Under the pieces are notes generated by a model. That model was not told the DNA's origin and made no database searches. It was given only the letters and a program-made list of their open reading frames with translations. The position numbers were made by a program, and so were the translations under genes. This document shows, one piece after another, positions 11,528 to 43,641 of a stretch of 43,641 nucleotides of DNA (position 1 is its first letter; the number at the start of each line of letters is the position of its first letter). This stretch comes from a virus: positions 1 to 43,641 of IMG/VR virus record IMGVR_UViG_3300048625_000093. One strand, 5' to 3'.

Positions 11528-11538
11528 ATCCATCCTCC

Positions 11539-18063: not shown

Positions 18064-18076
18064 TATATGATAGGGT
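18064..18076 (+). promoter_or_regulatory. late promoter -10 region for the terminase operon
   Basis: TATATGAT followed by TAGGGT (18071-18076), ending 6 bases before the first ATG of the plus-strand operon. The same -10 to start distance recurs at six other genes, so the transcript is probably leaderless; an AGGG at this point could also serve as a weak ribosome site. Confidence 0.55.
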
Positions 18077-18082
18077 TTCTGT

Positions 18083-18226
18083 ATGACTCCTTTACAGGTT
18101 GAACTCGCTAATGTTGAGTGGGAAATTTTTTTGATTTATAAGTCTGGGTTTGCTGCGCCTGAGAAGCTTGCTTCGTTGTGGGTTGAGGTTGACCGGCTTG
18201 ATGCGTTGGTTGTGCTTGATGGCTGA
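18083..18226 (+). CDS. small protein upstream of terminase, 47 aa
   Basis: First plus-strand gene, MTPLQVELANVEWEIF ... ALVVLDG. Helical and hydrophobic at both ends but without a clear membrane segment. Overlaps the next gene by 8 bases. Codon use is rich in TTG-Leu and T-ending codons, as in the next three genes. Unknown function, perhaps a packaging or regulatory accessory. Confidence 0.7.
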   Translation: MTPLQVELANVEWEIFLIYKSGFAAPEKLASLWVEVDRLDALVVLDG

Positions 18227-18407
18227 CGGGATTTTTTTTAATTATTGGGGTGTGACGCACGAGTTGGAGTTGGGTTTGTTTGACCGGCCGACTGTGTGGC
18301 GTGCTGTTGTTGATGGCGTTGATGAAGTTTTTTTTGATGCGTCTACGGATGCTGATGTTATTGAGTTGATTGATTTGGCGATTGGGGCGTGGGTTGCTGA
18401 TGTCTGA
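18219..18407 (+). CDS. small acidic protein, 62 aa
   Basis: Starts MADGIFFNYWGVTHELEL; longer in-frame starts overlap the whole upstream gene and are rejected. Contains GLFDRPTVWRAVVDGVDEVFF and an acidic, helical C-terminus (DADVIELIDLAIGAWV). 8-base overlaps at both ends. Unknown; located directly before the small terminase. Confidence 0.7.
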   Translation: MADGIFFNYWGVTHELELGLFDRPTVWRAVVDGVDEVFFDASTDADVIELIDLAIGAWVADV

Positions 18408-18909
18408 GTTGGTGTCGCGTTCTGCGATGGATTCGAAGTTGTTGTCGTTGGCTCGTAAGTCGCCGGCTGAGATTGCTGAGTTGACTGGGTTGGATGCTAA
18501 GTTTGTGGCGGCTCGTGTTAGTGAGTTGTTGGAGTCTCGGGATTGGTTGTCGGATAGGCAGCAGGAGCGTCTGCTTCTTGAGGAGGTTGCTGAGTTGAAG
18601 GATTTGGCGTTTGATGCTGTGCGTTCTTCGGCTGATGCGGGTGAGTTTGCGGCGACGGCTAATGTGGCGTTGCGTACTTTGAAGTTGGTGTCGGAGCGGA
18701 TTGATGCTCGGCGTAAGTTGGTGGATGCTGATATTAATGAGATTACTGCGGCGCAGGCGCGTGTGTTTGGTAAGGCTTTTGATAGGGCGTTGTCTCATAT
18801 TGTTGGTGTGTTGGGTGATGGTTTAGATTCTGCTGTGGTGGATGCCGCGGTTGCTGATGGGTTGAGGTTGGCTGTGCGCGAGTTGGATGGGCATGTCGTT
18901 TCTGAGTAG
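18400..18909 (+). CDS. terS: probable small terminase subunit
   Basis: 169 residues starting MSELVSRSAM. The N-terminal third has a helix-turn-helix-like segment (SPAEIAELTGLDAKFVAARVSELL), as in DNA-recognition domains of small terminases, followed by long helices (EEVAELKDLAFDAVRSS; LRTLKLVSERIDARRKLVDADINEI) for oligomer formation. It immediately precedes and overlaps the large terminase, the normal place. It would recognise the packaging site; identity rests on position and fold pattern because small terminases are poorly conserved. Confidence 0.7.
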   Translation: MSELVSRSAMDSKLLSLARKSPAEIAELTGLDAKFVAARVSELLESRDWLSDRQQERLLLEEVAELKDLAFDAVRSSADAGEFAATANVALRTLKLVSERIDARRKLVDADINEITAAQARVFGKAFDRALSHIVGVLGDGLDSAVVDAAVADGLRLAVRELDGHVVSE

Positions 18910-20449
18910 TGTTGTTGAGGGTGCGATTGGGGATTTGCAGGAGCGTAGCCGTAAGCGGTTGTATGAGTCTGACCCGCAGGCGTGGTTGTCTGATGTTTTG
19001 GGTAAGCGTTGGTATTCGAAGCAGGAGGAGATTGTTGCTTCGTTTATGGAGTCGCCTCGTACTGCGGTGAAGTCTGCTAATGGTTGTGGTAAGTCTGCGG
19101 TTGTTGCTGATTTGATTACTTGGCAGGTTGCTGTCTCTGACCCGCGTGAGACTTTGTGTATTGTTTCTGCGCCTACCTTGTCGCAGATTGAGAAAGTTAT
19201 TTTTGCGTATTTGAAAATTAATAAGTCTTCTGCTGGTGCACGCGGCATGGATTTGCCGGGTCGTATTACGGAGACGTTGGCGTGGAAGTTGGATGGTGAT
19301 GAGGGTTCTGAGTTCCTTGTTTTTGGTAAGCGACCGTCTGATAGGGATATTGTTTCTTCGTTTCAGGGAACTCGTAAGTTGCGTACTATGGTTTTTCTTG
19401 ACGAGGCTGGTGGTTTGCCTGCTGATATGTTTACTGCTGCGGAGGCTGTGGCGACTGGTTCGGACTCGAGGATTTTAGCGATTGGTAACCCGGACCGTCG
19501 TGGTACTGAGTTTCATAAAATTTTTACTGATTCGCATTTGTCGCAGGATTGGAATCTGCATACTATTAGTGCGTTTGATTTGCCGACGTTTACGGGTGAG
19601 GTTGTTTATCCTGATGTGAAGCAGCAAGATAATTTGTTGGCTGGGTTGACGAGTGTCGATTGGGTTGAACATAAGAAGCGCGCATGGGGTGTGGATAGCG
19701 CACGCTATAAGGCTAAGGTGTTGGGCGAGTTTCCTGACGAGGCCGATAATACTTTTTATGGTCAGGAAGTTATTGACCGCGCGTATGAGTGTGACATTGT
19801 TGAGGATGATGCTATCCGCCCAGTGTTGGGTGTTGACGTTGCGCGTTTTGGTTCGGATGAGAACCGTATGTATATTAATCAGGGCGGTCGTGTTCGTCGT
19901 TATGAGGATGGCACTGAGGATGGCGGTGCATGGTCGAAGACTGATTTGATTACGACGGCCCGTAAGGTTCATGCTGCCGCGCAGCGTGTTGGTGCGAAGC
20001 TTGTTAATGTTGACGTTAACGGTGTGGGTGGTGGTGTCGTGGATGCGTTGGTTACGTTGGATGAGTTCCGTGATGCTGTCTATGATGTGGGTGCTATTGC
20101 TGGTTCGAATGCGTCGCCCGATAATCAGCGTTGGTTTAATGCGAGGGCTTGGCATTATGATACGTTGCGTGAGAAGATGGCTGCGGGTCAGATTGATTTA
20201 GATTACAACGATAGTGATTTGCGTGAGCAGTTGATTACTCAGACTTATAAGTTCTCCGCTAAGGGGGCTGTGCAGATTACTTCGAAGGATGAGATGAAGA
20301 AGAATGGGTTATCTTCTCCTGATGCTTTGGATGCTGCGATTCTTTGTGTGATTGACTTCAATGAGTCAGATAGACCTGAGGTTGGGTCTGTTATTGAATA
20401 TGATTACGACGATGTTGATAACGCTTTCTATCGGGAATCCTTCTGGTAA
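18887..20449 (+). CDS. terL: large terminase subunit
   Basis: ATP-driven DNA packaging motor and nuclease. Walker A ANGCGKS (64-70), Walker B MVFLDE (168-173), coupling motif AIGNPD (198-203), then the RNase-H-like nuclease with GVDVARFGSDEN (D317), VNVDVNG in the second strand and SPDALDAAI near the end supplying further acidic ligands. 520 residues is normal. The start could also be the ATG two codons later; no strong ribosome site decides. Leu codons are mostly TTG, unlike the capsid genes. Confidence 0.95.
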   Translation: MGMSFLSSVVEGAIGDLQERSRKRLYESDPQAWLSDVLGKRWYSKQEEIVASFMESPRTAVKSANGCGKSAVVADLITWQVAVSDPRETLCIVSAPTLSQIEKVIFAYLKINKSSAGARGMDLPGRITETLAWKLDGDEGSEFLVFGKRPSDRDIVSSFQGTRKLRTMVFLDEAGGLPADMFTAAEAVATGSDSRILAIGNPDRRGTEFHKIFTDSHLSQDWNLHTISAFDLPTFTGEVVYPDVKQQDNLLAGLTSVDWVEHKKRAWGVDSARYKAKVLGEFPDEADNTFYGQEVIDRAYECDIVEDDAIRPVLGVDVARFGSDENRMYINQGGRVRRYEDGTEDGGAWSKTDLITTARKVHAAAQRVGAKLVNVDVNGVGGGVVDALVTLDEFRDAVYDVGAIAGSNASPDNQRWFNARAWHYDTLREKMAAGQIDLDYNDSDLREQLITQTYKFSAKGAVQITSKDEMKKNGLSSPDALDAAILCVIDFNESDRPEVGSVIEYDYDDVDNAFYRESFW

Positions 20450-20452
20450 GAT
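20447..20452 (+). promoter_or_regulatory. extended -10 element before portal
   Basis: TGG-TAAGAT: hexamer 20447-20452 with an upstream TG, 6 bases before the portal ATG and no ribosome site. It overlaps the end of the large terminase gene. Confidence 0.5.
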
Positions 20453-20458
20453 TGTTTT

Positions 20459-21970
20459 ATGTCTAAAATTCCTACAAATCTTTCTGGTTCTCGTAAGAAT
20501 CTTCCGGGTTATTCGCAGCTTTCTGAAAGGATTGCAGAACTTTCTGTGGAGAATGAGCGTCTCTCCGAGAACTATGCAGCGATTGCTCGAGCTACTTTAG
20601 AGTTCGATGAGGTGGGTTGGTCTTCTATTAACCAGTTGACTGCGAATCATGGCATTAGTTTGGAGCAGGTTAAGCAGATTGCTTTCAATGCTCGGATGCA
20701 GATGAACAATAATGCGGTATTGAATCGTGGCGCTGCCCTTCGTGCGTCGTATGTTTTCGGTCGTGGCTTTAAGATGTCTTCGGGTAACATGCCGTTGCAG
20801 CCACGCTACCAGTCAATTATTGATGACCCGATTAATCAGCAGGTTCTTTTTTCTGAGGCTGCATGTAAGAAGAATGAGAAGATTCTTTTCTCGACAGGTA
20901 ACTTCTTTGCGCGTTGGGATATTAAGAATCGTCGTTGGGCGCGTATCCCTATTGAGCAGATTACTGGTTGGGCTGTTGACCGTGATGACCCAGAGATTTT
21001 AAATTATGTTTTGCACGAATATAACCGTGTGCTTTCTGTCAATGCTGATGGTTCGCAGAAGACTGAGCATGTGAAGGTTTGGTATCCTCTGGATTACACG
21101 AAGAACCCGATGCCGAAGATTAACATGATTCCTGTTGACCGTAACTTTGTTTTGGTTGACCACCGCGAGAATGATGACACTGGTTCTTTGTGGGGCATGC
21201 CTGACTGTCTTCCTGCTTTGCCATGGGCTTGGGCTTATAGCGAATACTTGAAGGATGGCTCAAAGATGCTGAAGGCTCTCTCGAGTATTGCTTGGCAGGT
21301 TAAGTCGAAGACTAAGAACGGTCAGACTAACTCTTCAGCTAAGTTGTTGAACAACCGTCAGGTTGCTGCTACTGCTGTGACTGGTTCAGATGTTGAACTA
21401 TCTGCGATGCCGCGCAACAATGCTGTTGATTTGGATACTGGTCGCCCGCTTGCTGCGATGGCTGCGACTGCTATGGAAGTTAGTGTTGATGCTTTGCTTT
21501 CAGGTACTGGCACAACTGCTTTAGGTTCACAGGTTTTGGACCAGTCTACGCTGAACGCAGCGTATGGTCGTCAGGGTAACTGGGAAGCTTTCTTTACTCG
21601 TGCGCTTCGTGTGATGGGTGTTCGTGACCCGAGCGTTAAGTTTAATAAGATTATTGTTGACCCCGGCTACCGTAATGTTCAGTCGCTTGGTCAGGCTTGG
21701 CAGACTGGTCTGTTTGACCCCGCTATTATTCAGGCCGCCTATGCTGAGGAACTTGGTATTGAAGAGCGCGGTATGATTCCTGATGGTGTCATGGTTCCTA
21801 ATAATGAACATTCAGGTGTAACACCTACAAGTGGAAGTGTAACACCGGGTGCTGATATTACTGGAAATCAGACTGATGTGTCTACAGGTCAGGGCCGTTC
21901 AGGTGCTGGCATTGGTGATTTAACAAACTCAGATAATACTCTTAGGGATATTCAGAACATTCCGCAGTAA
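20459..21970 (+). CDS. portal protein
   Basis: 503 residues in the position and size of a portal, with helical N-terminus, the long central block typical of portals (RGAALRASYVFGRGFKM; ARWDIKNRRWARIPIEQITGW; LDYTKNPMPKINMIPVDRNFVLVDHRE), a crown-like part with WAWAYSEYLKDGSKML, and a Gly/Thr-rich C-terminal tail. It forms the dodecameric ring at the capsid vertex through which DNA passes and binds the terminase. Followed by protease and capsid genes as expected. Confidence 0.9.
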   Translation: MSKIPTNLSGSRKNLPGYSQLSERIAELSVENERLSENYAAIARATLEFDEVGWSSINQLTANHGISLEQVKQIAFNARMQMNNNAVLNRGAALRASYVFGRGFKMSSGNMPLQPRYQSIIDDPINQQVLFSEAACKKNEKILFSTGNFFARWDIKNRRWARIPIEQITGWAVDRDDPEILNYVLHEYNRVLSVNADGSQKTEHVKVWYPLDYTKNPMPKINMIPVDRNFVLVDHRENDDTGSLWGMPDCLPALPWAWAYSEYLKDGSKMLKALSSIAWQVKSKTKNGQTNSSAKLLNNRQVAATAVTGSDVELSAMPRNNAVDLDTGRPLAAMAATAMEVSVDALLSGTGTTALGSQVLDQSTLNAAYGRQGNWEAFFTRALRVMGVRDPSVKFNKIIVDPGYRNVQSLGQAWQTGLFDPAIIQAAYAEELGIEERGMIPDGVMVPNNEHSGVTPTSGSVTPGADITGNQTDVSTGQGRSGAGIGDLTNSDNTLRDIQNIPQ

Positions 21971-21985
21971 ATCTAGTGTAGAATA
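21970..21985 (+). promoter_or_regulatory. extended -10 promoter before protease gene
   Basis: AATCTAGTGTAGAATA; -10 TAGAAT (21979-21984) with upstream TGT, 7 bases before the ATG. The same 16 bases occur at 27304-27319, also 7 bases before a start. Confidence 0.7.
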
Positions 21986-21991
21986 TTTAAT

Positions 21992-22924: not shown

Positions 22925-22929
22925 TTCCA

Positions 22930-23313: not shown

Positions 23314-23324
23314 GGATATTAATA

Positions 23325-24479
23325 ATGTCTAACAAGATTAATCTCGTAGAAAATGCGATTGCTCGCATTGAAGAGAACACCACGAAGCGTCAGATGGAAG
23401 CTGCAAAGCTTTACTTCGCCGCTAAAGAGGGCGACGTTCGCGCTCGCGTAACTCTTCAGGAAGGTATCTCCACTTCGGATGTTCCTACTCTTCTTCAGCC
23501 TGCAATCAACGTTGAGTTCCTTTCCAAGTACGCTGTTCAGCCTACTGTCTGGAACCAGATTGCTCAGGAGAAGCAGCTTGAATTCAACACTGAGTACAAG
23601 TTCGGTAACTTCGTTATCGATGCTTCGTCACTTGGTGATGTAAACGGAAGCACTCACACTGCTGGTGGACTCCCCGTAGTTCCTGAGTACGCTGAGTACC
23701 CTTCTGTCAAATTCACTACTTCTTCTTCGAGCGTTACACTGCGCGACAAGAAGGGTATCCGCGCTCGCCTGTCATGGGAAGCTCTCCGCAAGTCGGGTAA
23801 CTTCGACCTCATCAACGAGTTCACCACCTACTTCGCTGTTGCTGCTGCTCGTGAAGAGGACTTCGTTCTCGCTAAGCAGTTCGTTACCGCTGGTGGAGCT
23901 GCTGCTTCCGCTTGGTCTGGCAAGGGAATCTCGGGTAACCCGACCCTCGCTGGCGATGTTAACGCTGCTCTTGAGGCGCTCGGTGCTGCTAAGACTGCTT
24001 CGCGCAACTTCAAGGTTGATGGTAACCCGATTGCTGTAAACCAGTGGAAGCTCGTTCACGGTGTTGCACTTACCCCGACCGTTGACAAGCTGTTCAACCT
24101 TACCGGTGTTAGCCACCGTCAGGACACAACCGATGGTACGCTTGACTTCGCTGTCAACCCCGGTGTTTACACTGGTGGAATTGCCCCGGTTGAGTTCCCT
24201 GCACTTGATGGTGTTTCTGCTGGAGCAACGGATGACTTCTGGTTCCTCGTTCCGGTTAACCCCGTTCGCCCGAACTTCCACGAGTTCTTCCTCACTGGTG
24301 AGCGCGCTCCGCTCATCACCATCAAGGACAGCGGTCACATGGCGCTGGCTGGTGGAGAGGTTCCCGTTCGTGAAGGTTCGTTCGATGAGGATGACATTCA
24401 GACTCGTGTTCGCCACCTCGTTGAGGCTGGAACCATGAACTCTGATGGCTTCGTCTACTCGACTGGTGCTGGCGTTTAA
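23325..24479 (+). CDS. major capsid protein (HK97 fold)
   Basis: 384 residues: an N-terminal helical arm (VENAIARIEENTTKRQMEAAK), E-loop/P-domain style strands (FGNFVIDASSLGDVNGSTHTAG), the long spine helix region (LSWEALRKSGNFDLINEFTTYFAVAAAREED) and a C-terminal A-domain with VPVNPVRPNFHEF. An AAGGA site precedes the ATG. Codons are strongly biased to C-ending forms (TTC, AAC, GAC, CGC), typical of highly expressed genes. A UUCG-loop terminator follows. Confidence 0.92.
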   Translation: MSNKINLVENAIARIEENTTKRQMEAAKLYFAAKEGDVRARVTLQEGISTSDVPTLLQPAINVEFLSKYAVQPTVWNQIAQEKQLEFNTEYKFGNFVIDASSLGDVNGSTHTAGGLPVVPEYAEYPSVKFTTSSSSVTLRDKKGIRARLSWEALRKSGNFDLINEFTTYFAVAAAREEDFVLAKQFVTAGGAAASAWSGKGISGNPTLAGDVNAALEALGAAKTASRNFKVDGNPIAVNQWKLVHGVALTPTVDKLFNLTGVSHRQDTTDGTLDFAVNPGVYTGGIAPVEFPALDGVSAGATDDFWFLVPVNPVRPNFHEFFLTGERAPLITIKDSGHMALAGGEVPVREGSFDEDDIQTRVRHLVEAGTMNSDGFVYSTGAGV

Positions 24480-24495
24480 TTACTCCATTAAGATT

Positions 24496-24525
24496 AGCCC
24501 CTCGCTTCGGCGGGGGGCTTTTCTT
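24496..24525 (+). terminator. UUCG-loop terminator after major capsid gene
   Basis: AGCCCCTCGC-TTCG-GCGGGGGGCT, ten pairs (one T-G), closed by a C(TTCG)G tetraloop and followed by TTTCTT. Confidence 0.9.
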
Positions 24526-24529
24526 ATGT

Positions 24530-24535
24530 TAGGAT
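24530..24535 (+). promoter_or_regulatory. -10 element directly after terminator
   Basis: TGT-TAGGAT, hexamer 24530-24535, 6 bases before the ATG at 24542; five bases after the terminator T-run, so it restarts transcription of the neck genes. AGGA inside it could also act as a weak ribosome site. Confidence 0.6.
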
Positions 24536-24541
24536 TAATGT

Positions 24542-25042
24542 ATGGAAAATGACTACGCTATGCTTAATGACCGCCAGCGCAAACAGGCTGAACAATATGC
24601 TGAACTTGCTGTAGAGTATGGCATGTTTGACCAGACAACTTTTGCTAATGGTGCTCACTACGCTCCCGCAAAATTTAATCCTTTTGTGAAAGAGGGTATG
24701 GCCTGCAAGAACTGCGTATTTTTTGATGAGTCAAATAACCAGTGCCAGATTGTTGCTGGTCCTATTGAACCTGATGCTGTTTGTAAACTTTGGGTTATTC
24801 CAGAGAATCTTCTTGCAGGTTACAAGGCTGAAGCTGCCCCAGCTATTGAGGCTGCTGTCAATGTTAAAGAGTTCTATATTCGTAAAGACGCACCTGGTTG
24901 CAAGGGTAGCTGGGCTACTGTTGATGGTAAGGGTGATGTTGTAACCTGCCATGAAACTAAAGACCAAGCTGTCAAGCATATGGTTGCTGCATCTATCGGT
25001 GCGGGTGAGCAGCCCGGTGGCGAGTGGTCACCTAAAAAGTAG
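24542..25042 (+). CDS. head-region protein with HiPIP-like four-Cys motif
   Basis: 166 residues. The core is CKNCVFFDESNNQCQIV followed by GPIEPDAVCKLW: C55-x2-C58-x9-C68-x12-C81, close to the C-x2-C...C...C pattern of high-potential iron-sulfur proteins, so it may bind a [4Fe-4S] cluster (inference). The C-terminal part (GSWATVDGKGDVVTCHETKDQAVKH) resembles the short domain found at the ends of some phage head proteases. The N-terminus is helical. Position between capsid and head-tail adaptor genes suggests a structural or assembly role. Confidence 0.7.
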   Translation: MENDYAMLNDRQRKQAEQYAELAVEYGMFDQTTFANGAHYAPAKFNPFVKEGMACKNCVFFDESNNQCQIVAGPIEPDAVCKLWVIPENLLAGYKAEAAPAIEAAVNVKEFYIRKDAPGCKGSWATVDGKGDVVTCHETKDQAVKHMVAASIGAGEQPGGEWSPKK

Positions 25043-25061
25043 ACTTGATTCTACTGTAAGA

Positions 25062-25067
25062 TAGAAT
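25062..25067 (+). promoter_or_regulatory. -10-like element TAGAAT upstream of a terminator
   Basis: GTAAGATAGAATTG right after the Cys-cluster gene. Only a short Pro/Cys-rich frame and a terminator follow, so its role is unclear; listed for its match to the other late elements. Confidence 0.3.
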
Positions 25068-25098
25068 TGCATGGTTCCTCCTCCAATCCAGCCATGCT

Positions 25099-25133
25099 GC
25101 CCCCCGTTGAGTTTCTGCTCCGGGGGGCTTCTC
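25099..25133 (+). terminator. terminator hairpin
   Basis: GCCCCCCG paired with CGGGGGGC (8 pairs, 14-base loop) and then TTCTCT. It ends the transcript of the Cys-cluster gene. Confidence 0.8.
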
Positions 25134-25140
25134 TATGCGG

Positions 25141-25146
25141 TAGAAT
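25141..25146 (+). promoter_or_regulatory. -10 element before head-tail adaptor gene
   Basis: GCGG-TAGAAT, 6 bases before the ATG at 25153, directly behind a terminator and without a ribosome site. Confidence 0.65.
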
Positions 25147-25152
25147 AGAGTT

Positions 25153-25548
25153 ATGGCAAATACAGGAGTAGCACCCGTAGACTTGGGTTCAAACATTGGG
25201 CGTGTTCGCGTTCTTCTTGGCGACACAGACCCCATCAATGTTGCTAATAATATTGGTGAATACTTATTCTTCAGCGATGCTGAAATCGAATCAATCCTCA
25301 CCATGTATGGTGATAATCCAAAGCTTGCTGCTGCTCGTGCACTTGAAACTATTGCTGGCTCACAGGCCCTGCTGCTTAAGTCTTGGTCAACTGATGACCT
25401 GTCTGTGCGCGGTGACCAGATTGCTAAAGAACTTCGTGAGGTTGCTAAGCAGCTTCGCGCTGAGGCTGCCGATTGGGAGTCTAGCGATTTCTATGCGCTT
25501 ATCCAAACAGTTGATGCTGATGACCCGACGGTGACATGGTGGAACTAG
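25153..25548 (+). CDS. head-tail adaptor (gp6-like)
   Basis: 131 residues with the helical adaptor pattern: RVRVLLGDTDP near the start, FFSDAEIESILTMY, AAARALETIAGSQALLLKSWSTDDLSVRGDQIAKEL and a helix rich in Ala/Arg. Such proteins form the ring docked under the portal (HK97 gp6 type). Start is at the first ATG behind the -10 element. Confidence 0.82.
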   Translation: MANTGVAPVDLGSNIGRVRVLLGDTDPINVANNIGEYLFFSDAEIESILTMYGDNPKLAAARALETIAGSQALLLKSWSTDDLSVRGDQIAKELREVAKQLRAEAADWESSDFYALIQTVDADDPTVTWWN

Positions 25549-25549
25549 C

Positions 25550-26290
25550 ATGGGTGTTTTCAATCAGTCGATGAATTTTACAGCCATCGGCTCTGAGATG
25601 GCTGGTGTCATGCGTTCATGGATGAATGCTACGATTCAAATTGTTGACCCTAATACTGATTCAGCTATTTGGGATGAATGGACTAATACTGAAACTGGTG
25701 GTGAGCCAACAGTTATCTGGTCTGGACCTGCACGAATCCAGCACCTGTCTGCGCAATCAAATGCTAATGTTGGGTTCAGTGAAGTTGGCATCCGTGGCAT
25801 TCGCGTGCAAGTTCCACTAGATGTTGAGGCGGGATTTATTCGTAAAGGCTTGCAAGTTATTGTTACTGATGGTGGTAATGATTATGAACTTGAGCAGTTG
25901 CAGTTTGTTATAGCATCTGCTATTAATTCAAGCTATGCTTGGGGTCGTACTATTGAATGTCATGTTGATGTTAAGTCAATTGCTAACTCAACATGGTCTG
26001 GAATTGCTGGCTCTGTAGTATCAAATGGCGCAGCTATTAGCGGGGCTACCGTGCGAACATTCCACCATGAAGATAACCTTTGGATAATGGATTATGAAAC
26101 GACTACGGACTCCCTCGGAAATTATGAACTTCCTGCGGATGCAGGTGTACCCATCACTATTGTTGCTTCTGCTGCCGGCTACATTACTGATTACTACGAT
26201 GGTGCTAATGGCTTTGATTTCGCAACGACTGTAACGCCTGTTAACCACGAGGAGATACAGGGAATCAATTTTGATTTGGTGCTTGACTAA
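25550..26290 (+). CDS. head-tail stopper-like protein with C-terminal Ig-like domain
   Basis: The first 140 residues form the compact neck domain of head closure proteins (IWSGPARIQHLSAQS; IRVQVPLDVEAGFIRKGLQVIVTDG; WGRTIECHVDV). Residues about 150-246 are a separate domain of the carboxypeptidase-regulatory / CNA-B type: SGIAGSVVSNGAAISGATVR, DSLGNYELPADAG, VASAAGYITDYY. Ordinary stoppers are only about 110-150 residues, so the Ig-like tail is an addition, probably displayed on the neck surface where it may bind cells or glycans (inference). Confidence 0.78.
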   Translation: MGVFNQSMNFTAIGSEMAGVMRSWMNATIQIVDPNTDSAIWDEWTNTETGGEPTVIWSGPARIQHLSAQSNANVGFSEVGIRGIRVQVPLDVEAGFIRKGLQVIVTDGGNDYELEQLQFVIASAINSSYAWGRTIECHVDVKSIANSTWSGIAGSVVSNGAAISGATVRTFHHEDNLWIMDYETTTDSLGNYELPADAGVPITIVASAAGYITDYYDGANGFDFATTVTPVNHEEIQGINFDLVLD

Positions 26291-26850
26291 TGGCTAGGGC
26301 TTTATCTTTTAAGGTTGATGCTTCACAGTTTTATGCGAAGATTAATTCTCTTACCGGCATAATGCAGGAGGGCGGAGATAAAGGTCTTGAGTATGCCTCA
26401 CAGGGTACTGTTAATGTAATGCGCAATCGTATAGAAACTGCTGGAACTAAATGGTCTTCGTTTCGTTTCGATAGTGGTGGAAGTCTTCCTAATGTTGACC
26501 CGGGTATTGGCCCGGGCCGTACACTTAGCGGAGACATGCTTAACTCTATAGGTTTCCTTAAGCGTGGAAAGAACATTGTCATGGGTTATGTTCATGGAGT
26601 CCAACAGTATTTTAGATACCAAGAGTATGGTTTCACAAACTGGGGAACATACATCATGCCATACACTAGCCAGAATGGGAATGTTGGTGGTGGGTTCTTC
26701 CTAAATCATCCACGCTTTGAGCATTTGACTCCGGGTATCTTTGCTCTTAAGGATGGAAAAACAAACATGACTAGAACAGCTCCAGGTCTTATTAAGGCTA
26801 CAGCTGTTCGTTATGCCAACATGGAAAAATATTCTAAGGGTAAAAAATGA
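26290..26850 (+). CDS. gp10-like neck/tail-connector protein
   Basis: 186 residues, starting inside the upstream stop (TAATG). Sequence ALSFKVDASQFYAKINSLTGIM, a helix GTVNVMRNRIETAG, then LSGDMLNSIGF and QYFRYQEYGF, matching the HK97-gp10 type of tail-completion proteins in order and length. It is followed by the tail terminator with an ATGA overlap. Confidence 0.75.
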   Translation: MARALSFKVDASQFYAKINSLTGIMQEGGDKGLEYASQGTVNVMRNRIETAGTKWSSFRFDSGGSLPNVDPGIGPGRTLSGDMLNSIGFLKRGKNIVMGYVHGVQQYFRYQEYGFTNWGTYIMPYTSQNGNVGGGFFLNHPRFEHLTPGIFALKDGKTNMTRTAPGLIKATAVRYANMEKYSKGKK

Positions 26851-27305
26851 GTGGCCTTAATTTAGTCGCAGCTCAAGATACTATTGCTGCATACATTAGA
26901 CAAGAGTTTCCTAACTATGAAGTTTATGAAGATGAACTTATTGACAATGAGTCAATCCTCAAGATGGGAAATAAAGTAAAGCCTTATATCACCCTGCGCT
27001 GGGGTGGACTAAATAGAAGCCCTAATGCTCGGGCGTTATCTGGTGTGCGCTTTGATGAATACGATTCAACTGTTGATGTCAATGTTATAGCTCCGACACC
27101 CAAGCAGTGTAGGCGAGCGTTGAATATTATTATGGATACCCTTATCGGGTGGAAGTTTGATGGAGTATTCCCAATGGTTCCCGAGGGTGGAGCTGGAGTT
27201 TATGTTGTGCCAGATTTAAATGGTATCCCACATGTATATTTGGCTACTGCCCGCTTGAGTTTCGCTGTAAACTCTATTGACCCCGGTGCTAACATTGCAC
27301 CGTAA
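26847..27305 (+). CDS. tail terminator protein
   Basis: 152 residues: an N-terminal helix (AAQDTIAAYIRQEFPNYEV), strands KPYITLRWGGL, DSTVDVNVIAPTPKQCRRALNIIMDTLIG and a C-terminal strand with ARLSFAV, the alpha/beta layout of gpU-like tail terminators that stop tail-tube growth and join tail to head. Gene order (neck protein, terminator, tube) supports it. Confidence 0.78.
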   Translation: MSGLNLVAAQDTIAAYIRQEFPNYEVYEDELIDNESILKMGNKVKPYITLRWGGLNRSPNARALSGVRFDEYDSTVDVNVIAPTPKQCRRALNIIMDTLIGWKFDGVFPMVPEGGAGVYVVPDLNGIPHVYLATARLSFAVNSIDPGANIAP

Positions 27306-27319
27306 TCTAGTGTAGAATA
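27304..27319 (+). promoter_or_regulatory. extended -10 promoter (second copy of 16-base element)
   Basis: AATCTAGTGTAGAATA, identical to 21970-21985, with -10 TAGAAT at 27313-27318, 7 bases before the ATG at 27326. No ribosome site. Confidence 0.7.
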
Positions 27320-27325
27320 GATACT

Positions 27326-27601
27326 ATGGTACTTGCACGAAACACTATCTCCGGGCAGATTGCTGATGTCTCACCCAAGCTTCTTAAGCACCCAAAGTTT
27401 AAGGATATTCTTGAGGTCGTTGATGCTGGCGCGAAGCCGTATGTTGCTGAACTGTATAAGTCCGGCACTAAGCAGGAAAAGGCTACTAGCAAATCAAAGA
27501 AGAAAGCTGAAGCTGTAGAGGCTGAAGTTATCATTGAAGATGAGCTTGTTGTCGAAGATGAAGTAATCGAAATCTACCCTGAAATTAAGGAAGAAAACTA
27601 A
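27326..27601 (+). CDS. small charged protein before tail-tube genes, 91 aa
   Basis: Basic N-terminal half (RNTISGQIADVSPKLLKHPKFKD), a Lys/Ser linker and a strongly acidic C-terminus (VIIEDELVVEDEVIEIYPEI). Unknown, placed between tail terminator and tube genes. Predicted leaderless start; overlaps the next gene by one base. Confidence 0.7.
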   Translation: MVLARNTISGQIADVSPKLLKHPKFKDILEVVDAGAKPYVAELYKSGTKQEKATSKSKKKAEAVEAEVIIEDELVVEDEVIEIYPEIKEEN

Positions 27602-28116
27602 TGGCAAACACACGACTTTATCGTGAGAACATTACGTTCCTTCTCGCTCACCCGGAGGCTTTCGCAGACCGCACTGCCCCCACAGCAGCTGAACTGAACG
27701 ACACTACGCTTGTTCACAACATCACCTGCGCTCTGAACGAGGATGGTACGGAGTTCACTCTTGGAGACTCGGACACCGATGACACTTTGACTTTCTGTTC
27801 AAAGGCTGGAATCTCAACCCCGACTTTCTACAATCCCACAGTTAAGATGGAAGCATTCCGTGACGCAAACGTCACAGCCGAAAGTGAGTTTAACCTTGCA
27901 TTCGACTTGCTTGCATTCCCCGATATTGAATACATTGCTATTCTTCGTATCGGCGGCAAGAGCACAGATGTGTTCACTGCTGGTAACATCGTAAAGATGG
28001 CTGCTGTAAAAACAGACTACGGCACTGATGTCGTTGGCTCTGGTGAAAACATCCGTATCTCGCAGGCGTTCCTCCCGAACGACTTTGTTAACTGGAACTA
28101 TGAGGTGGCTGCATAA
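27601..28116 (+). CDS. tail tube protein 1
   Basis: 171 residues, beta-rich, starting MANTRLYRENITFL with the motif TAPTAAELNDTTLVHNITCAL and ending with VNWNYEVAA. The PTAAELN segment recurs in the next protein, so they are likely related tube subunits. It follows the tail terminator and precedes the chaperones, where the major tail protein sits. Codon use is of the highly expressed type. Confidence 0.75.
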   Translation: MANTRLYRENITFLLAHPEAFADRTAPTAAELNDTTLVHNITCALNEDGTEFTLGDSDTDDTLTFCSKAGISTPTFYNPTVKMEAFRDANVTAESEFNLAFDLLAFPDIEYIAILRIGGKSTDVFTAGNIVKMAAVKTDYGTDVVGSGENIRISQAFLPNDFVNWNYEVAA

Positions 28117-28877
28117 TGACTATCGGAACAAAGGTTCCCGCATCGGGAAACATCCGTGTATGGTGGGCACTCGAGAATGCTTTCTCAAACTGGCAGTCCC
28201 CTACTGCTGCTGAGATTAATGCATCGCTTGATGTCTCTGATTCGATTTCTTGGAACGACTTTGGCTTTGCCCTTGACGCTTCAAACACAATCGATGACCC
28301 AGCTATCACTGCTATCGGTAAGGTTTCTGACCGTGGTGCTGCTCAGTTCGGTGGAACGATTTCGTTCTACTACCCCGGAGTTTTCGGTGATACATCGAAC
28401 CACTACGCAAACACTTACGATGCTCTCGACCAGCCACGCACCAAGGGATTCCTTGTTATTCGCGTTGATGGTGAAAACTCGAACGACCTGACAGCTTCGA
28501 ATGGTGACCTCGTTCACGTCTTCCGTGTGATGACTGACGCATACGCAGAGACAATTGTTGGTGAAGAAGCATTCCGCTACACCATCACATTCCTCTCGCA
28601 GGGTGACCTTGCAGTTCGTACCATGGTTGGTACAGTAACTGTTGACATCGCTGAGGGTGTTGGCACAGTTATGACTGCTGGCGAGAAGCTTCCTCTGCAC
28701 GCTTTCCTTAATGAGACTCGTGTTTACACGAACGGTCTTAAGTGGACAAGCTCTAATCCTGCTGCTGTTTCAGTATCAACTGCTGGCGTTCTCACATGCC
28801 ACACAACAGCAACTACAACCATTACTGCTACATACAAAGCAACTGGTGCTACCGCTACGTTCCTCGTAAACGACTAA
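28116..28877 (+). CDS. tail tube protein 2 with BIG2-like domain
   Basis: 253 residues. The first 165 resemble tube proteins (SPTAAEINASLDVSDSISWNDFGFALDAS; GRFTITFL-type strands) and share PTAAE(I/L)N with its neighbour. Residues about 172-253 are an Ig-like BIG2 domain: KLPLHAFLNETRVYTNGLKW, SSNPAAVSVSTAGVLTCHTTA, TITATYKATGATATFLV. Such domains decorate the outside of many phage tails. Coupled to tube protein 1 by TAATG. Confidence 0.8.
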   Translation: MTIGTKVPASGNIRVWWALENAFSNWQSPTAAEINASLDVSDSISWNDFGFALDASNTIDDPAITAIGKVSDRGAAQFGGTISFYYPGVFGDTSNHYANTYDALDQPRTKGFLVIRVDGENSNDLTASNGDLVHVFRVMTDAYAETIVGEEAFRYTITFLSQGDLAVRTMVGTVTVDIAEGVGTVMTAGEKLPLHAFLNETRVYTNGLKWTSSNPAAVSVSTAGVLTCHTTATTTITATYKATGATATFLVND

Positions 28878-28903
28878 GCATATCCCGACAAGGATGACGA
28901 CTG

Positions 28904-28928
28904 GCCCCTCTTCGGAGGGGCTTTTCGT
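28904..28928 (+). terminator. UUCG-loop terminator after tail-tube genes
   Basis: GCCCCTC-TTCG-GAGGGGC (7 pairs, tetraloop) followed by TTTTCGTTT. Confidence 0.9.
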
Positions 28929-28934
28929 TTATGT

Positions 28935-28951
28935 GATAGGATATTCCTATC
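28935..28951 (+). promoter_or_regulatory. promoter with overlapping palindrome before chaperone genes
   Basis: -10-like TAGGAT (28937-28942) lies inside the palindrome GATAGGA-TAT-TCCTATC. A proper ribosome site (GGAGG) follows before the ATG at 28970, so this transcript has a short leader. The palindrome may be an operator. Confidence 0.5.
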
Positions 28952-28969
28952 GAACCCTATGGAGGATTA

Positions 28970-29623
28970 ATGTCTCAAGACATGGAAAAAGAAATTACTG
29001 AGATTGTCGATGCCGCTAAAGCTCCCGGTACATTTAACATTCTTAATGTAATTAAGAACAAAGCATATCCTAAAGATGATGTAGTTATCTACCTTGATGA
29101 GCAGGCAGCATATGATGCATCAAACCTGAAAGATAAAATTCAGGATGTTCAAATCAATGTTGATAATGAGATTGATGTAAAAGAGAACACTATCAAGCTT
29201 GATGCTTTGAAGGCTGAACTTGATGAAGCGATGAAGCGTGTTCAGGCAAGTAAGTATATCTTTACTATTAGCGGAATCTCTGAGGGCAAGCGTGAAGAAC
29301 TTTTTGATAAAGCTCGCGAGAAGTTCCCAGTCGAGTATCGTGAAGAGCGTAATGTTCTTTCGCAGGAAACAACTCGTATCGAGATTGAAAGTGAAGAGCG
29401 AGACAAGTATCTCACTAATCTTTTGTGGGCTGAGTCTGTAGTAGCAATTACCGCACCTGATGGTTCTGGACAGAATGGTATTTCATTTGATGATGTTGTA
29501 GAGTTGCGTTTCAGTTTTCCACCATCGGCAAATATTATTATCAATCAAACCATTGAGAAGGTTCGTGCAGCTTCCGCCGTATTCCTTATGTCGGTGGATG
29601 AGGATTTTTTAGCCAAGTCCTAG
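28970..29623 (+). CDS. tail assembly chaperone, upstream frame (gpG-like)
   Basis: 217 residues, helical and acidic (EKEITEIVDAAKAPG; LKAELDEAMKRVQAS; REKFPVEYREE). The position between tube and tape measure, followed by a second frame one base back, marks the two-part chaperone that folds and delivers the tape measure. Near its end lies a slippery heptamer through which a fraction of ribosomes pass into the next frame. Confidence 0.85.
   Translation: MSQDMEKEITEIVDAAKAPGTFNILNVIKNKAYPKDDVVIYLDEQAAYDASNLKDKIQDVQINVDNEIDVKENTIKLDALKAELDEAMKRVQASKYIFTISGISEGKREELFDKAREKFPVEYREERNVLSQETTRIEIESEERDKYLTNLLWAESVVAITAPDGSGQNGISFDDVVELRFSFPPSANIIINQTIEKVRAASAVFLMSVDEDFLAKS
29605..29611 (+). other. 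-1 ribosomal frameshift site T_TTT_TTA
   Basis: In the chaperone frame the bases read GA-T TTT TTA, a canonical slippery heptamer. A slip back by one base joins the frame that continues, without a stop, into the gene ending at 30078. Confidence 0.8.
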
Positions 29624-30078
29624 TGTGGGATGACCACCGTTATTTTGGTACATTGTTGAGGGCGGCTGTCAAATCTGGGCAGCCGCCCTTAGCGGTTATA
29701 CTGAATGACCCTACACATAAGGACTGGGATGAGTGGGATTATAAACTTTTCAAGGCGCACTATATTCTTCAGGACTGGTATCGTGATGGTATCCCTGTAT
29801 GGTGGGATGAATCAGAGCGTGTAATATTTGAGGCTAAGGCTCGTACTTCTAAATCTCGCGCAGCTATTGAGCGTGCGCAGGAAGCCGCATCAAAGAATAA
29901 GACTCCATCTCCGGGTAGGTATTATGTTGCTGAGCCTCGGACTATTGATGGTGGGCCTATGCCAACCCGTGAGGAGTGGGGTGAGGAGCAAACTATGAAG
30001 TCAAACAAGAATGCTCCAGTAACAAAGTTTGGTGGGGGACCCGGCTCTAGAAATAATATTCAGCAGGGTCGAAAATAA
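29611..30078 (+). CDS. tail assembly chaperone, downstream frame (gpGT extension)
   Basis: Expressed as a C-terminal extension through the -1 shift: after the slip the sequence runs SQVLVWDDHRYFG..., giving a fusion of about 369 residues. A GTG at 29623 could in principle start it alone but has no ribosome site. It contains RAAVKSGQPPLAVILNDPTHKDWDEWDYKL, and a basic, Gly-rich C-terminus (KFGGGPGSRNN), typical of gpGT-like extensions that contact the tape measure. Confidence 0.82.
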   Translation, partial: SQVLVWDDHRYFGTLLRAAVKSGQPPLAVILNDPTHKDWDEWDYKLFKAHYILQDWYRDGIPVWWDESERVIFEAKARTSKSRAAIERAQEAASKNKTPSPGRYYVAEPRTIDGGPMPTREEWGEEQTMKSNKNAPVTKFGGGPGSRNNIQQGRK

Positions 30079-30088
30079 ACTCATGAGG

Positions 30089-30110
30089 TAGAATAGATAT
30101 AACTATTCTA
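30089..30110 (+). promoter_or_regulatory. promoter with overlapping inverted repeat before tape measure
   Basis: TAGAATAG-ATATAA-CTATTCTA: 8-base inverted repeat, its left arm being the -10-like TAGAAT (30089-30094). The tape measure start follows 18 bases later after a GAGG site. Same design as 28935-28951. Confidence 0.5.
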
Positions 30111-30127
30111 TTTGTTTTGAGGTTTGC

Positions 30128-33100
30128 GTGGCTAACGAAGATATTCAATTTACCGCCGGCTTAGACTGGACTGCCCTGAAGAGGGGTATGTCTGACGCTA
30201 CCACTATGGTAGAGAGAACAGCTAAAGCTACTCGCGCTAAAGTTGACCTGAAAATCAATATTAGTGCTGGCGACCTTAGAAAACAAGTTCAAGCTGCTGT
30301 CAAGACTGAGCAAAAAGAAATGCTTAAGAACCTTGGGCAAAGTGCAGTATCACAAATTAGCAGTAAGCAGTATGGTAATCTTGCACAGATTAAGCAGCCA
30401 CAAAATATTGCCAAGGCAATGGATACTGGTAATGTCGCCAGCATTGGTGCACAGGAGCAGGCTTATGAGGAGCAGCAGAAACGTGAGCTTGCATCACTTC
30501 AGGCTAACATCCGTGCGCGTTATGCTGCCGAAGATAAATTAAACAAATCGCTTAAGTCGCTTGGGGAGAAGCGAGCTAATGAGCGCCAAGCTGCTGAGGA
30601 AAAACTTAACCGCGCCATGGCTCGCCTTCAGGCGGAGCGTGAGCGTCAAGCAAAGCAAGAAGAACAGCAGAAGATTAACTCTCTTCCAAGGCTTCGTTAT
30701 GCCCTTTATGATGTTGCTAACATTGGTGACAAAATGGGCCGCTCACTTACTGGTGCTGTTGGCGGCGCAATCAAAACCTTTATGGATTTTGAGACATCAT
30801 TTACTGCGGTGCAGCGCGCAGCTGATGTTACTGGGACTAAAGCGGATGACCTTAAAGCTCAGCTGATTAGTCTTACTCGCGATGTTCCACTATCGTTCCA
30901 AGATGTTGCTGGCCTTTCGACACTCGGCGCTCAGCTTGGTGTAGCAGATAGTAACCTTAAAGACTTTGCTCTTACTGTAGCTCAGTTCTCATCGGTTACG
31001 AATGTTTCAACTGAACAAGCTGCTATGGCCTTTGGTTCGCTTGGAAACCTTTTGCACTTGAGTTCGGCACAGTACAAGAACCTTGGCTCTGCTATTGCAT
31101 ATGCCGGTATTAAAGCCGTTGCTACTGAGAAGGACATCATCTCTGTTGCCACTGCTGTTGGTGGTGTTGGTACTCAGGCCGGTCTTAGCGCCGAGTATGT
31201 TCTTGGTCTATCAACTGCGCTTGCTTCGCTTAAGGTTCCAGCAGAGCAGTCACGTGGTGCTATGACTCGTATGTTCCAAGAGATTAACCGAGCAGCGACT
31301 ATTGACCCTAAGGCAATGGATGAGTTTGCTAACGTCATGGGCATGACGACAGAGAAGGCAACTGCTCTGGCAAAAACTGATATGGGTACATTCTTTACTC
31401 AGTTTATTACTGGAATGAATAAAGTATCTGCTGGTGACCCAACAAAGATTACCGCACAACTTGATGCTTTGAACCTTAGTGATATTCGTATTACAAATAC
31501 TATTACTCGTCTTTCACAAAACCTTCCACTATTTAAGAAAAGTATGCAAGATGTTGGTGGAGCTTTTGCTTCTGGAACATTCTTGGCTGAGTCATACAAA
31601 GCTAAGATTGATGACCTCGCATCGCGCTTCGCTATCTTGAAGAATGCTTTTGCTGAGTTTGCTAATACTGTTGGTGGAACACTTGCCCCATACTTGAAAC
31701 CTCTCGTTGATGGCCTTGCTTTTGTTGTCAATTTATTTAACGATATTTCTAAGAACCCTGTAGGCGCAACTATCCTTGGGCTTGGTGCTGGTGTTGTTGC
31801 TCTTATCGGTGGGCTTCTTCTTCTCGCGCGGACTGTTGCTAGTGTTGTAGCTGGTAGCCTTGCTTTGCGTACTGCTGTTACTGAAGTTATGCGAAGCACG
31901 CAAGGTGCAAACGGTAGCTTCGGTCAAATGATTGCATTCCTACTTGGACTTGATGGTGCTGCTAAAAAGGCAACCATGTCTATGATTGGCTTGGGTAATG
32001 CGACTAAGGGAACTGGTCGCCATGCAATTGGGTACAACGCCGCTGCCGCTGCATCCAATACTGCAACTGGTGCTATGAATGTTTCATCTAAAGCTGCATC
32101 AATTGGTATTGAGGGTATTGGTACAGCAATGAAAGGCCTCATGAAGGCTACCATTGTTACAGCAATTATTGCTGCTGCATTTGAAGCAATTCAATGGGGT
32201 ATTAGTGCTATTGAAGAATCAATGAAGACATCCGCTGACCGGGCTAAAGCATACTATGGTGAGGCTGCGCAGCAAACAATTATTGATGCAGCAAAGATTG
32301 ATACACAGCAGGTTAACTCTGGTGCGCAGTCACAGTCTAATGTGATGAAGACAGTATCGGTTATTCAACCAGATACCCTTTCTACATCAACAACAGATAA
32401 TGCTGCGGCTGCTGCATCTAGTGCACTGACAAATAATACTCTTGCAGATTCACAGAAAGCTCTTGAATCTTCTGTTATTTCAACATCTGATGCCCTTGAT
32501 AAACAGACATTATTCTATGGCGAGAATGCTAAGGCTGCTGCATTTAAAGTCATTCAAGATAAGATTATGTCTGACTCTGGAAATCCGCTTCGTAAACTTT
32601 ACGAAGATAAGGGTGCTGTGGATGCACTTAAAAAATCTGGTGTTGACCTTAAGAAATATACTGAAGCTATCATCTCTGGTAATGATGAAGCGGCTCAAGC
32701 TGAGCTTGCAAAACTCAGAGGATATGAGCAGGAGAAACAGAAAGCATATAAGGAAACATATGCTGCCGGTAACTTGGCTGCTGTAAATGGCAATCAAGGT
32801 GCAGCAAAAAATCTTAATGACCAAGCTCAAGCATTTCAACTCCAGTCTGGTTCTGCAACTATTGCTATTGCTCGTCTTGAAAAATATGATGAAACAACAA
32901 AAGGACTTCTTCCAGATTCTGCTGCCGTTACTGCTGCTGCTGATATTATGGGCGAGTCGATTTCAAATAGCGGAGATGCTGCTGCAAATGCTGCTGGAAA
33001 ATTTGACCAATTTAAGCAGGATTTTAATAACGCTTTTGGTGGCGAGAGCGAAGCTTTAACTAAGTTTGCTGGAAGTTTAGATTCCCTTCTTAGTGGCCTT

Positions 33101-38900: not shown

Positions 38901-38938
38901 TATACTTAGATACAGACTTCTCCCCCTACTATGTGTAA
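35933..38938 (+). CDS. large tail hub/minor tail protein with FN3 domain
   Basis: 1001 residues, coupled to the previous gene by TAATG. Order of parts: a Gly/Thr/Ser-rich beta domain (1-140); an FN3 domain (146-255, with the SWNHAG and YYFRVSSKN strands); a LamG-like or jelly-roll region (about 260-560); a hub-like region (GWEYLQAAAAASNMELVVNPTGEIVVR at about 580-606); then beta-rich baseplate and a C-terminal Asp-rich end (FIDIDTDGTPDIT). It probably forms the tail tip and carries adhesive domains. The hub assignment is from pattern only. Confidence 0.72.
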   Translation: MAAPISVNFGGASTTSGFTGAGIYTAIGIGARRLAANGLGPQIITTVSGYLGGRGGACTGTIYLGSSSLAGVSIPSAANGGTIRGPFNTSDWYVSNGATANYGFNATGGTNSFYFGRSASGTTYDTSGGTPWTGVAGGAYTYVQSPSAPGNLAITSTVMGEANVSWNHAGTGSPIVVGDDGGTAVTGSRLQYSVVETFGSGVTTVDLTGIGTITAHITGLTPGAIYYFRVSSKNAVTTAASTTSVWSATKSVFVMVDAATAYETLHPQRNAVTPLQNGAFWSLAGHGIGFDRNGKQIKPGIAPYTYNYYEPQSASYMTQQGNIDYNLLRTSNSIVDVPASYTGPPLDPFVVYPYDNFGDTLYANNIQYSSLAVRKVNSTYNSVYRMAYKTRLWYPNKNDWNQKDYFKHTVAWQGKPSDSFLFTGQQYQYTIDSVAQELAISVNYIDASGTAQVATNTVSLSPLMADMSYEFNVYVEYTYDSSFNYRLSVMVTLSGNIGTSVMAEVTYTAKRDDVYYTPVAINGVARDLYVTHSEHQTQLAAYEWQNQDIGYITNNLTAATKTDIGGPTLGVKMNGWEYLQAAAAASNMELVVNPTGEIVVRNTGENIVDITNLVPSVTLTPTTTFSGQQVEVQYNNAISVSASDATSTEIPESRPEEMYNAWFDDNRILEVKTGEILKITVNTKNYPLAVYNPTRVYFISDPVTGKALFTDSLSLYGQYSVSDSLNMLIGKDKFEAAGGKLEVVINPDIPNALDITLTAPHFDIPNAVGPYRLSISSGTNEYASLSILGYGLKTEPKNVQILTGSTASKTPQKVAKTIINPFIDTLERAYDQGSWAATEASGPKVSINGSIPTNTLLASGFGLNVGGIIKYMNSSYRIVELNIGNIETRFQATRFVRVDDFDTEWLDGTQQRSVGFHDGVWDGKEVQDEIVLSYYGTAGIDGVFIDIDTDGTPDITFNMNGAVGEYVLLFDTDGVPYYELIAAGQCATLLYLDTDFSPYYV

Positions 38939-38944
38939 TAGGAT
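38939..38944 (+). promoter_or_regulatory. -10 element before fibre gene
   Basis: TGTGTAA-TAGGAT, 6 bases before the ATG at 38951, at the stop of the hub gene. AGGA could also serve as a weak ribosome site. Confidence 0.55.
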
Positions 38945-38950
38945 TGTATT

Positions 38951-40117
38951 ATGACTCAACCTTCAAGTAAACGCTTTGTTATGGAAGACGGCTATCTAGC
39001 CAACAAAGGGGCAACAGATACTGCAATCTATGATGAGCAGATAGCGCGTCAAGAGGGGGATGATGCGACACTAATTAGCGCAAATGCCCACACTGATTCA
39101 GAAATAAATACTTTAAATACTGACCTTGGTGGCAAGCGGCCACTACCAAACTATTTGATTAACGGTGCTTTTGACATTTGGCAGCGTGGAACATCACTGA
39201 CGCTTCTTACAGCATCAATGCAGTCTGGATATATTGCTGACCGTTGGAAGTCTTACGCAACCGGGACAACTGGTGCATCATACACATTCTCTCGAATTGA
39301 GAATACTTCTCGTATTCCCGGAGATTTGGGTAGATATGATATGCAGATTACTCAAAACAATACCGTTGTAGACCCTGCTCACTTTGGTAGTATTGTTCAG
39401 GTCATTGAGACTAGCGACTTGTTTCCTATTATTGGTCGCGAGGTTGGCTTCTCTGGATACATCAATTCAAACATCAATACAAGTATTGAGATTTCCATTG
39501 TGGGGGCTGATGCTGTTGATTCTTCATCACCAACAACTATTCAGACATTCACTGCTTCCGTTGTAGCTGGTCAATGGACACAGTTCTCTTTGAGTTCGCT
39601 TGGAATTTCATGGACTAAGCTTACTGTCGGTGTGCAGATTAAAGTTAATTTGCAAAATGCTGGTGACTACATTAAGGTCAGCAGGATTAAACTTGAGCAA
39701 GCATCTGCGGTGAACTATGAACCTACTGCCTTTATTCGCAATGGTGCAAATGTTGCTGCTGAGCTTGCTACATGCCAGCGCTATTACTACCGCACACCAT
39801 CACCGTCTGTAGGATATCCTTGGGCTAATGGATATAACACAACAACATTGCTGTCTACATTCTTTGTGCAGTTCCCGGTCCCTATGCGTGTAGCCCCTTC
39901 TGCGCTTGAGCAGAGTGGTACTGCTGCGCACTTTGCAATCACTAATACTGTTGGTGCTGCTGTAGCATGTAGTGCTGTGCCGACACATGTAAGCGCAAGT
40001 ACACGAGGCGCTCGTATTGCAACAACTGTTGCTACAGCTGGAACTGCTGGGTTTGGTTCAATGCTTCTTGCTAATAACACGGCTGCGTATCTTGGGTGGA
40101 GTGCTGAAATCCTATGA
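38951..40117 (+). CDS. tail fibre / receptor-binding protein with carbohydrate-binding-like domain
   Basis: 388 residues. A short N-terminal stem (residues 1-60), then NYLINGAFDIWQRGTSLTL ... GYIADRWKSY, the hallmark start of carbohydrate-binding-module-like domains in phage fibres, a jelly-roll (to about 260) with LEQASAVNYEPTAF, and a C-terminal QRYYYRTPSPS domain common at fibre tips. It would recognise host surface sugars. Confidence 0.8.
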   Translation: MTQPSSKRFVMEDGYLANKGATDTAIYDEQIARQEGDDATLISANAHTDSEINTLNTDLGGKRPLPNYLINGAFDIWQRGTSLTLLTASMQSGYIADRWKSYATGTTGASYTFSRIENTSRIPGDLGRYDMQITQNNTVVDPAHFGSIVQVIETSDLFPIIGREVGFSGYINSNINTSIEISIVGADAVDSSSPTTIQTFTASVVAGQWTQFSLSSLGISWTKLTVGVQIKVNLQNAGDYIKVSRIKLEQASAVNYEPTAFIRNGANVAAELATCQRYYYRTPSPSVGYPWANGYNTTTLLSTFFVQFPVPMRVAPSALEQSGTAAHFAITNTVGAAVACSAVPTHVSASTRGARIATTVATAGTAGFGSMLLANNTAAYLGWSAEIL

Positions 40118-41361: not shown

Positions 41362-41367
41362 TATACT
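41362..41367 (+). promoter_or_regulatory. extended -10 promoter TGGTATACT
   Basis: TGG-TATACT, a consensus extended -10, 36 bases before the holin-like gene start, so this transcript has a leader. Confidence 0.65.

Positions 41368-41699: not shown

Positions 41700-43641
<1,942 letters not shown>

Follow-up and report, generated by a model that had tools for sequence, protein, structure and literature searches.

In Mycobacterium tuberculosis a TANNNT element lies 7-12 bp upstream of most transcription start sites (TSSs) with no -35 motif, and among genes with a primary TSS the leaderless share is 26% (PMC3898074). A 5'-terminal ATG or GTG suffices for leaderless initiation in Mycobacterium (PMC4633059). 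Leaderless initiation was previously a matter of actinobacterial chromosomes and scattered phage cases; in the phages compared here it appears as a fixed, position-specific design of the structural gene region, shared by a wide set of actinophages.

Probable -10 elements at the starts of late genes

The window is the IMG/VR record IMGVR_UViG_3300048625_000093 at its full length of 43,641 bases. A preliminary description had reported seven late genes with a -10 hexamer ending 6, 6, 7, 6, 6, 7 and 6 nt before the start codon and had predicted leaderless transcripts for them. All seven hexamers were found at these places:

18071..18076, plus strand: -10 TAGGGT, 6 nt 5' of ATG 18083 (first late gene, 47 aa)
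20447..20452, plus strand: -10 TAAGAT, 6 nt 5' of ATG 20459 (portal)
21979..21984, plus strand: -10 TAGAAT, 7 nt 5' of ATG 21992 (head maturation protease)
24530..24535, plus strand: -10 TAGGAT, 6 nt 5' of ATG 24542 (166 aa)
25141..25146, plus strand: -10 TAGAAT, 6 nt 5' of ATG 25153 (131 aa)
27313..27318, plus strand: -10 TAGAAT, 7 nt 5' of ATG 27326 (91 aa, function unknown)
38939..38944, plus strand: -10 TAGGAT, 6 nt 5' of ATG 38951 (tail fibre)

The product of gene 24542 has a weak head-protease match, and that of gene 25153 is head-tail connector-like, judging by its position. The TAAGAT hexamer of the portal gene overlaps the TAA stop codon of terminase. The identity of two elements over 16 bases is exact, with AATCTAGTGTAGAATA found at 21970 and 27304. 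The statement that most hexamers are preceded by TG (extended -10) was too strong: a strict TGn is present in 3 of the 7 (18083, 20459 and 24542), and two more have GTG.

For the window-wide scan 28 late starts were listed by hand along with 28 early positions, three of which are not on a start codon. TANNNT occurs before the late starts five times at spacing 6, twice at spacing 7 and never at spacing 5 or 8, so the seven elements are the only ones at 5-8 nt; there are none among the 28 listed early positions. The narrower TRGRAT was observed 5 times at spacing 6-7 against a mean of 0.11 in shuffled sequence, and any TANNNT 7 times against a mean of 1.4; neither count was reached in any of 3000 dinucleotide shuffles. 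The hexamer is thus far commoner before starts than in shuffled sequence, which was the comparison proposed in the preliminary description. Its other contrast, ribosome sites missing at most of these starts and present at nearby genes, stands in a weaker form. Pairing to the anti-SD (anti-Shine-Dalgarno) tail has a median energy of -2.9 kcal/mol at the seven starts; the other late genes reach -5.1 and the background -1.8 (one-sided P 0.03), so that the sites are indeed weaker at the seven, but the difference is graded and moderate rather than all-or-none. The weak SD-like AGGA at 24542 and 38951 is a part of the TAGGAT hexamer itself.

Conservation and anatomy of the elements

The genes to be tested were chosen in the window beforehand, and their orthologous starts were then sought in other genomes: IMG/VR relatives found by the portal, relatives found via other genes, two contigs of a metagenome-assembled genome (MAG) of uncultured Microbacteriaceae and INPHARED isolates. 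In the pooled and de-duplicated counts, which include the window, TANNNT stands 5-8 nt before 100 of the 108 starts of six genes (18083, 3/3; 20459, 23/25; 21992, 25/29; 24542, 4/4; 25153, 26/28; 27326, 19/19) versus 4 of the 202 starts of neighbouring genes (18887, 0/20; 22930, 0/22; 23325, 1/26; 25550, 0/28; 26290, 0/11; 26847, 2/23; 27601, 0/25; 28116, 0/24; 28970, 1/23). The corresponding Fisher P is about 6e-66, with the window counted, and it overstates independence because the rows are related by descent. For the seventh gene, 38951, the single orthologue with that start (44% amino acid identity) has the same element. At 18083 TANNNT is retained at spacing 6 in both homologues having that gene; one relative (L005) retains TAGGGT but has lost a second possible hexamer, TATGAT, located 5 nt further upstream. 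Nine contigs not used before, which came from a later scan with another gene, served as a held-out set: here the element is present at 17/17 starts of the four testable genes (7/7 each for 25153 and 27326) versus 0/61 starts of other genes. The search in related phages proposed in the preliminary description therefore gave a clear outcome, the hexamer being kept at the same genes and absent at their neighbours.

The middle letters of the hexamer vary freely (TAGAAT, TAAACT, TATTAT, TATCAT, TATGCT), and TA...T together with the 6-7 nt spacing is constant. Portal orthologues, for example, have TAAACT in Clavibacter phage CN1A and TATACT in Microbacterium phage Alleb. The pattern is present in isolates of 54-65% GC at 27-49% protein identity and was found in Clavibacter phages CN1A and CMP1, in Microbacterium phages Alleb, PhillyPhilly and Lyell, and also in Jojan60 and Pan2. 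Arthrobacter phage Molivia has the element at one gene and leaders elsewhere. No peak at 6-7 nt comparable to this was seen in phiC31, BFK20, Giles and lambda with a simple gene caller, which misses genes in GC-rich genomes; with the same caller the unrelated actinophages phiC31, BFK20 and Giles have one or two such sites at most. The lack of a comparable peak in these three rules out a generic property of actinophages.

Some annotated starts in the relatives deserve a comment. In Alleb and PhillyPhilly (L037, 20983 and 22824; L124, 8904 and 13606) they fall within the -10 itself (TAGAATG), and a start 9 nt further downstream agrees both with the Lyell homologue (MAY.. vs MEIMAF../MENMAF..) and with the leaderless prediction. 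The annotated portal start of CN1A is 38 codons 3' of the homologous ATG, which stands 6 nt after TAAACT. The element offers a way to correct start codons of annotated phages and to recognize from sequence that a host is actinobacterial.

The spacing among 104 elements is 6 nt in 75, 7 nt in 26, 8 nt in two and 5 nt in one, that is, 6-7 nt in 101/104. The start codons behind them are 102 ATG and 2 GTG, with no TTG. Relative to the hexamer, 85% of the elements have G at -2 and 63% have T at -3; TGn of the extended -10 is present in 65/104. The second base after the hexamer is G in 70%, and among the 75 elements of spacing 6 the base at -5 from the start is G in 57. G at -5 is a known contact of sigma region 1.2. 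No conserved -35 was detected, as no position upstream of -9 from the hexamer exceeds 0.25 bit divergence, and sigma-70 -35/-10 pairs are not above shuffles. An SD-like tetramer occurs at 15/104 element starts, partly within the hexamer.

Predicted leaderless and leadered late units

Most probably, the elements are sigma-A type -10 promoters whose predicted TSS falls at the start codon, and we hold the resulting set of leaderless late units to be very likely. Each element would be read by sigma-A of the host, independently of a -35 and often in the extended form, perhaps together with a phage or WhiB-type activator. At spacing 6, RNA polymerase is expected to initiate on the start codon itself, at its first base; at spacing 7, one base earlier. 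With start points at the start codons, the late region would thus be split into several units, the first gene of each being translated from a leaderless mRNA by the host's route for a 5'-terminal AUG or GUG, and the genes after it relying on ordinary SD sites. This reading is well supported because the elements are built in the way described for leaderless promoters of actinobacteria. The inference of the preliminary description is supported, as a prediction of 5' ends, by the shuffles, the position and spacing of the elements, their conservation at orthologous genes, the TANNNT core, the lack of a -35, the exclusive use of RTG starts, the discriminator G and the terminators before some units.

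The late region contains other signals as well, three of which are promoters that the preliminary description did not include:

24496-24519: terminator just 5' of the -10 at 24530..24535
28903..28922, plus strand: intrinsic terminator before the 28937 promoter
28937..28942, plus strand: leadered late promoter, -10 TAGGAT, 27 nt to ATG 28970 with a GGAGGA SD
30089..30094, plus strand: leadered late promoter, -10 TAGAAT, of the tape measure gene (GTG 30128)
41362..41367, plus strand: leadered late promoter, -10 TATACT, of the gene at 41404

As these three promoters have ordinary leaders, the late region is mixed. The leader of ~27 nt and GGAGGA are kept in the orthologues of 28970, where a TTG start is frequent. 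In one relative (L028, near 10001) TAGACT stands ~30 nt before the start of the head-tail gene and the leader contains AGGAG; as read from its sequence, this gene has changed naturally from the leaderless to the leadered form, and it illustrates that orthologues without the leaderless arrangement can retain a promoter and acquire a leader with SD.

It may be that the hexamers are -10s, but RNA that starts upstream or reads through dominates, and translation is mostly leadered or reinitiated. Transcription from upstream units is possible, genes 20459 and 21992 start only 10 and 22 nt after the upstream gene, and in two elements (24542 and 38951) the AGGA within TAGGAT is at an SD-like distance and could serve as SD in read-through RNA. 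We consider this very unlikely in view of the terminators ahead of 24542 and 25153, the latter present in all relatives, and of the conservation, which concerns TA...T rather than AGGA and keeps the spacing at 6-7 nt.

That the motif is a translational feature, an A/T-rich unstructured start region with no promoter, is less probable still. The element regions are richer in A/T than their flanks, which speaks for it; yet letters 1, 2 and 6 are fixed, as are TG/G preceding them and the G at -5, the neighbouring starts do without the motif though they also need open start regions, and the same element stands before a non-coding RNA (see below). Chance combined with shared descent in an A/T-rich genome would be helped by close relatives (>90% identity), which inflate the counts; it is already refuted by the comparative data, namely by the pattern in the diverged isolates and the held-out contigs. 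The preferred reading remains that of promoters with leaderless transcripts.

The phage most likely infects actinobacteria, presumably freshwater ones. An actinobacterial host is indicated by a WhiB domain encoded in the window, by Clavibacter and Microbacterium being the hosts of its nearest isolated relatives, and by relatives within the Microbacteriaceae MAG. Megablast against phage records returned no close isolate. The WhiB domain is C-terminal in the product of 5644-6342 (minus strand), next to an HNH-endonuclease-like part (weak PHROG match). Elsewhere in the window, 10835-11533 (minus strand) encodes a DprA-like (DNA_processg_A) protein, and an open frame at 41700-43641 (plus strand), truncated at the window end, contains long collagen-like Gly-X-Y repeats. 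A phage-encoded sigma factor was rejected as the reader of the promoters, no sigma domain being found among the window proteins scanned. Jojan60 has an annotated 'RNA polymerase sigma-H factor' (L120, 4281-4772). Since it is related to the ORFs that in CMP1 and CN1A directly precede the large terminase gene, it is more likely, and we think probably, the small terminase subunit. Jojan60 (L120/L126), which also has an annotated WhiB1, and Pan2 (L121/L127) are labelled as Stenotrophomonas and Pseudanabaena phages; both display the leaderless signature and gene order of actinophages, and their recorded hosts are doubtful.

A putative small RNA and comparison with known systems

In all close relatives, a putative small RNA is located in the gap that separates the capsid gene from the 25153 promoter; in the window it follows gene 24542:

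25057..25062, plus strand: -10 TAAGAT of the putative small RNA, 6 nt before the hairpin base
25069..25134, plus strand: putative 66-nt small RNA, a hairpin with CCUCCU loop followed by a terminator hairpin and U tail

The distance from the -10 to the hairpin base is 6 nt in 18 and 7 nt in 4 of 23 loci. Here the same -10 stands 6-7 nt before a covarying non-coding hairpin, and so the spacing fits the placement of a TSS with no codon involved. The first loop is invariant (CCUCC) in 18/18 aligned sequences, and the stem letters are swapped for complementary ones: 16 of 17 pairs are changed on both sides, and 94% of the cells pair (two helices). The covariation score is 0.604 versus 0.185 for shuffled and at most 0.114 for slid alignments, the alignment having been fitted to the structure. 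The loop of the terminator hairpin is C-rich or variable across relatives; it is CCCCC-rich in most of them and not in the window. A covariance model matches all nine held-out contigs with E below 1e-9 and gives a weak match at the orthologous place in CN1A, outside the model (E 0.009). No Rfam family scored above threshold, with only sub-threshold chance matches, and RF01066 (6C) has no match at 24400-30200 of the window or in the relatives up to E 1-10. A borrowed host gene was rejected, the RNA being absent from the 118 bacterial relatives of the MAG that were searched and present only on its phage contig; ATG 25072 was rejected as a short gene, as it lies inside the hairpin and is not kept by the relatives. 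We regard the locus as a putative conserved small RNA, previously undescribed.

The loop equals in sequence the core of the anti-SD tail of 16S rRNA, CCUCCUUUC; the loops of Jojan60 and Pan2 comprise nine consecutive letters of this tail. In the window, the best pairing partners of the loop are SD regions of early genes, and the leaderless starts pair with it poorly; SD strength by itself would predict this. The 6C/B11 RNAs of actinobacteria, which are likewise small RNAs with C-rich hairpin loops, act on G-rich SD regions through these loops (PMC10470900), so a translational role of the phage RNA is plausible; unlike them it is phage-encoded, has an invariant CCUCC instead of a C run and does not match RF01066. 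It is conceivable, though rather unlikely, that the RNA acts as a translation switch: by binding SD sites it would repress those mRNAs of the host and of early phage genes that are SD-led, and the leaderless late mRNAs, having no such target, would continue to be translated. It speaks against a switch that late leadered genes with a strong SD (28970, 34633) would be hit too. An anti-SD small RNA beside leaderless genes offers a concrete, falsifiable link to control of SD-led translation, and the phage group a testable system for asking why a virus forgoes SD sites for virion genes.

In the literature within reach of our search, which most subscription journals lie outside, no description of such a design in Microbacteriaceae phages was found. 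The elements resemble leaderless genes of M. tuberculosis and M. smegmatis in having TANNNT at -12 to -7, no -35, a 5'-terminal ATG/GTG and no SD. They differ in that the mycobacterial genes are chromosomal and depleted from active-growth functions whereas those of the phages encode virion structural proteins, and in that TGn is found in 65/104 elements versus 7% in M. tuberculosis (PMC3898074, PMC4633059). The predicted leaderless promoters PL1, PR2 and PL2 of Corndog-type (Cluster O) mycobacteriophages are also SigA-like, their +1 coinciding with the initial base of the codon; in contrast to the present case these are three sites, PL1/PR2 are divergent and intergenic, -35 boxes were sought, and there was no tracing over a phage superfamily (PMC4351075). 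Two further kinds, the -10-adjacent ORFs described in Deinococcus-Thermus (PMC12340547) and the TA-led genes (PMC3160421), share the -10 directly before the ORF, the spacing requirement and the mis-annotated starts, but belong to bacterial chromosomes of another phylum and were tested there by mutation. The fit to the Mycobacterium, Deinococcus and Corndog precedents therefore points to a known mechanism, which these phages appear to use in an unusually systematic and gene-specific manner in their structural regions.
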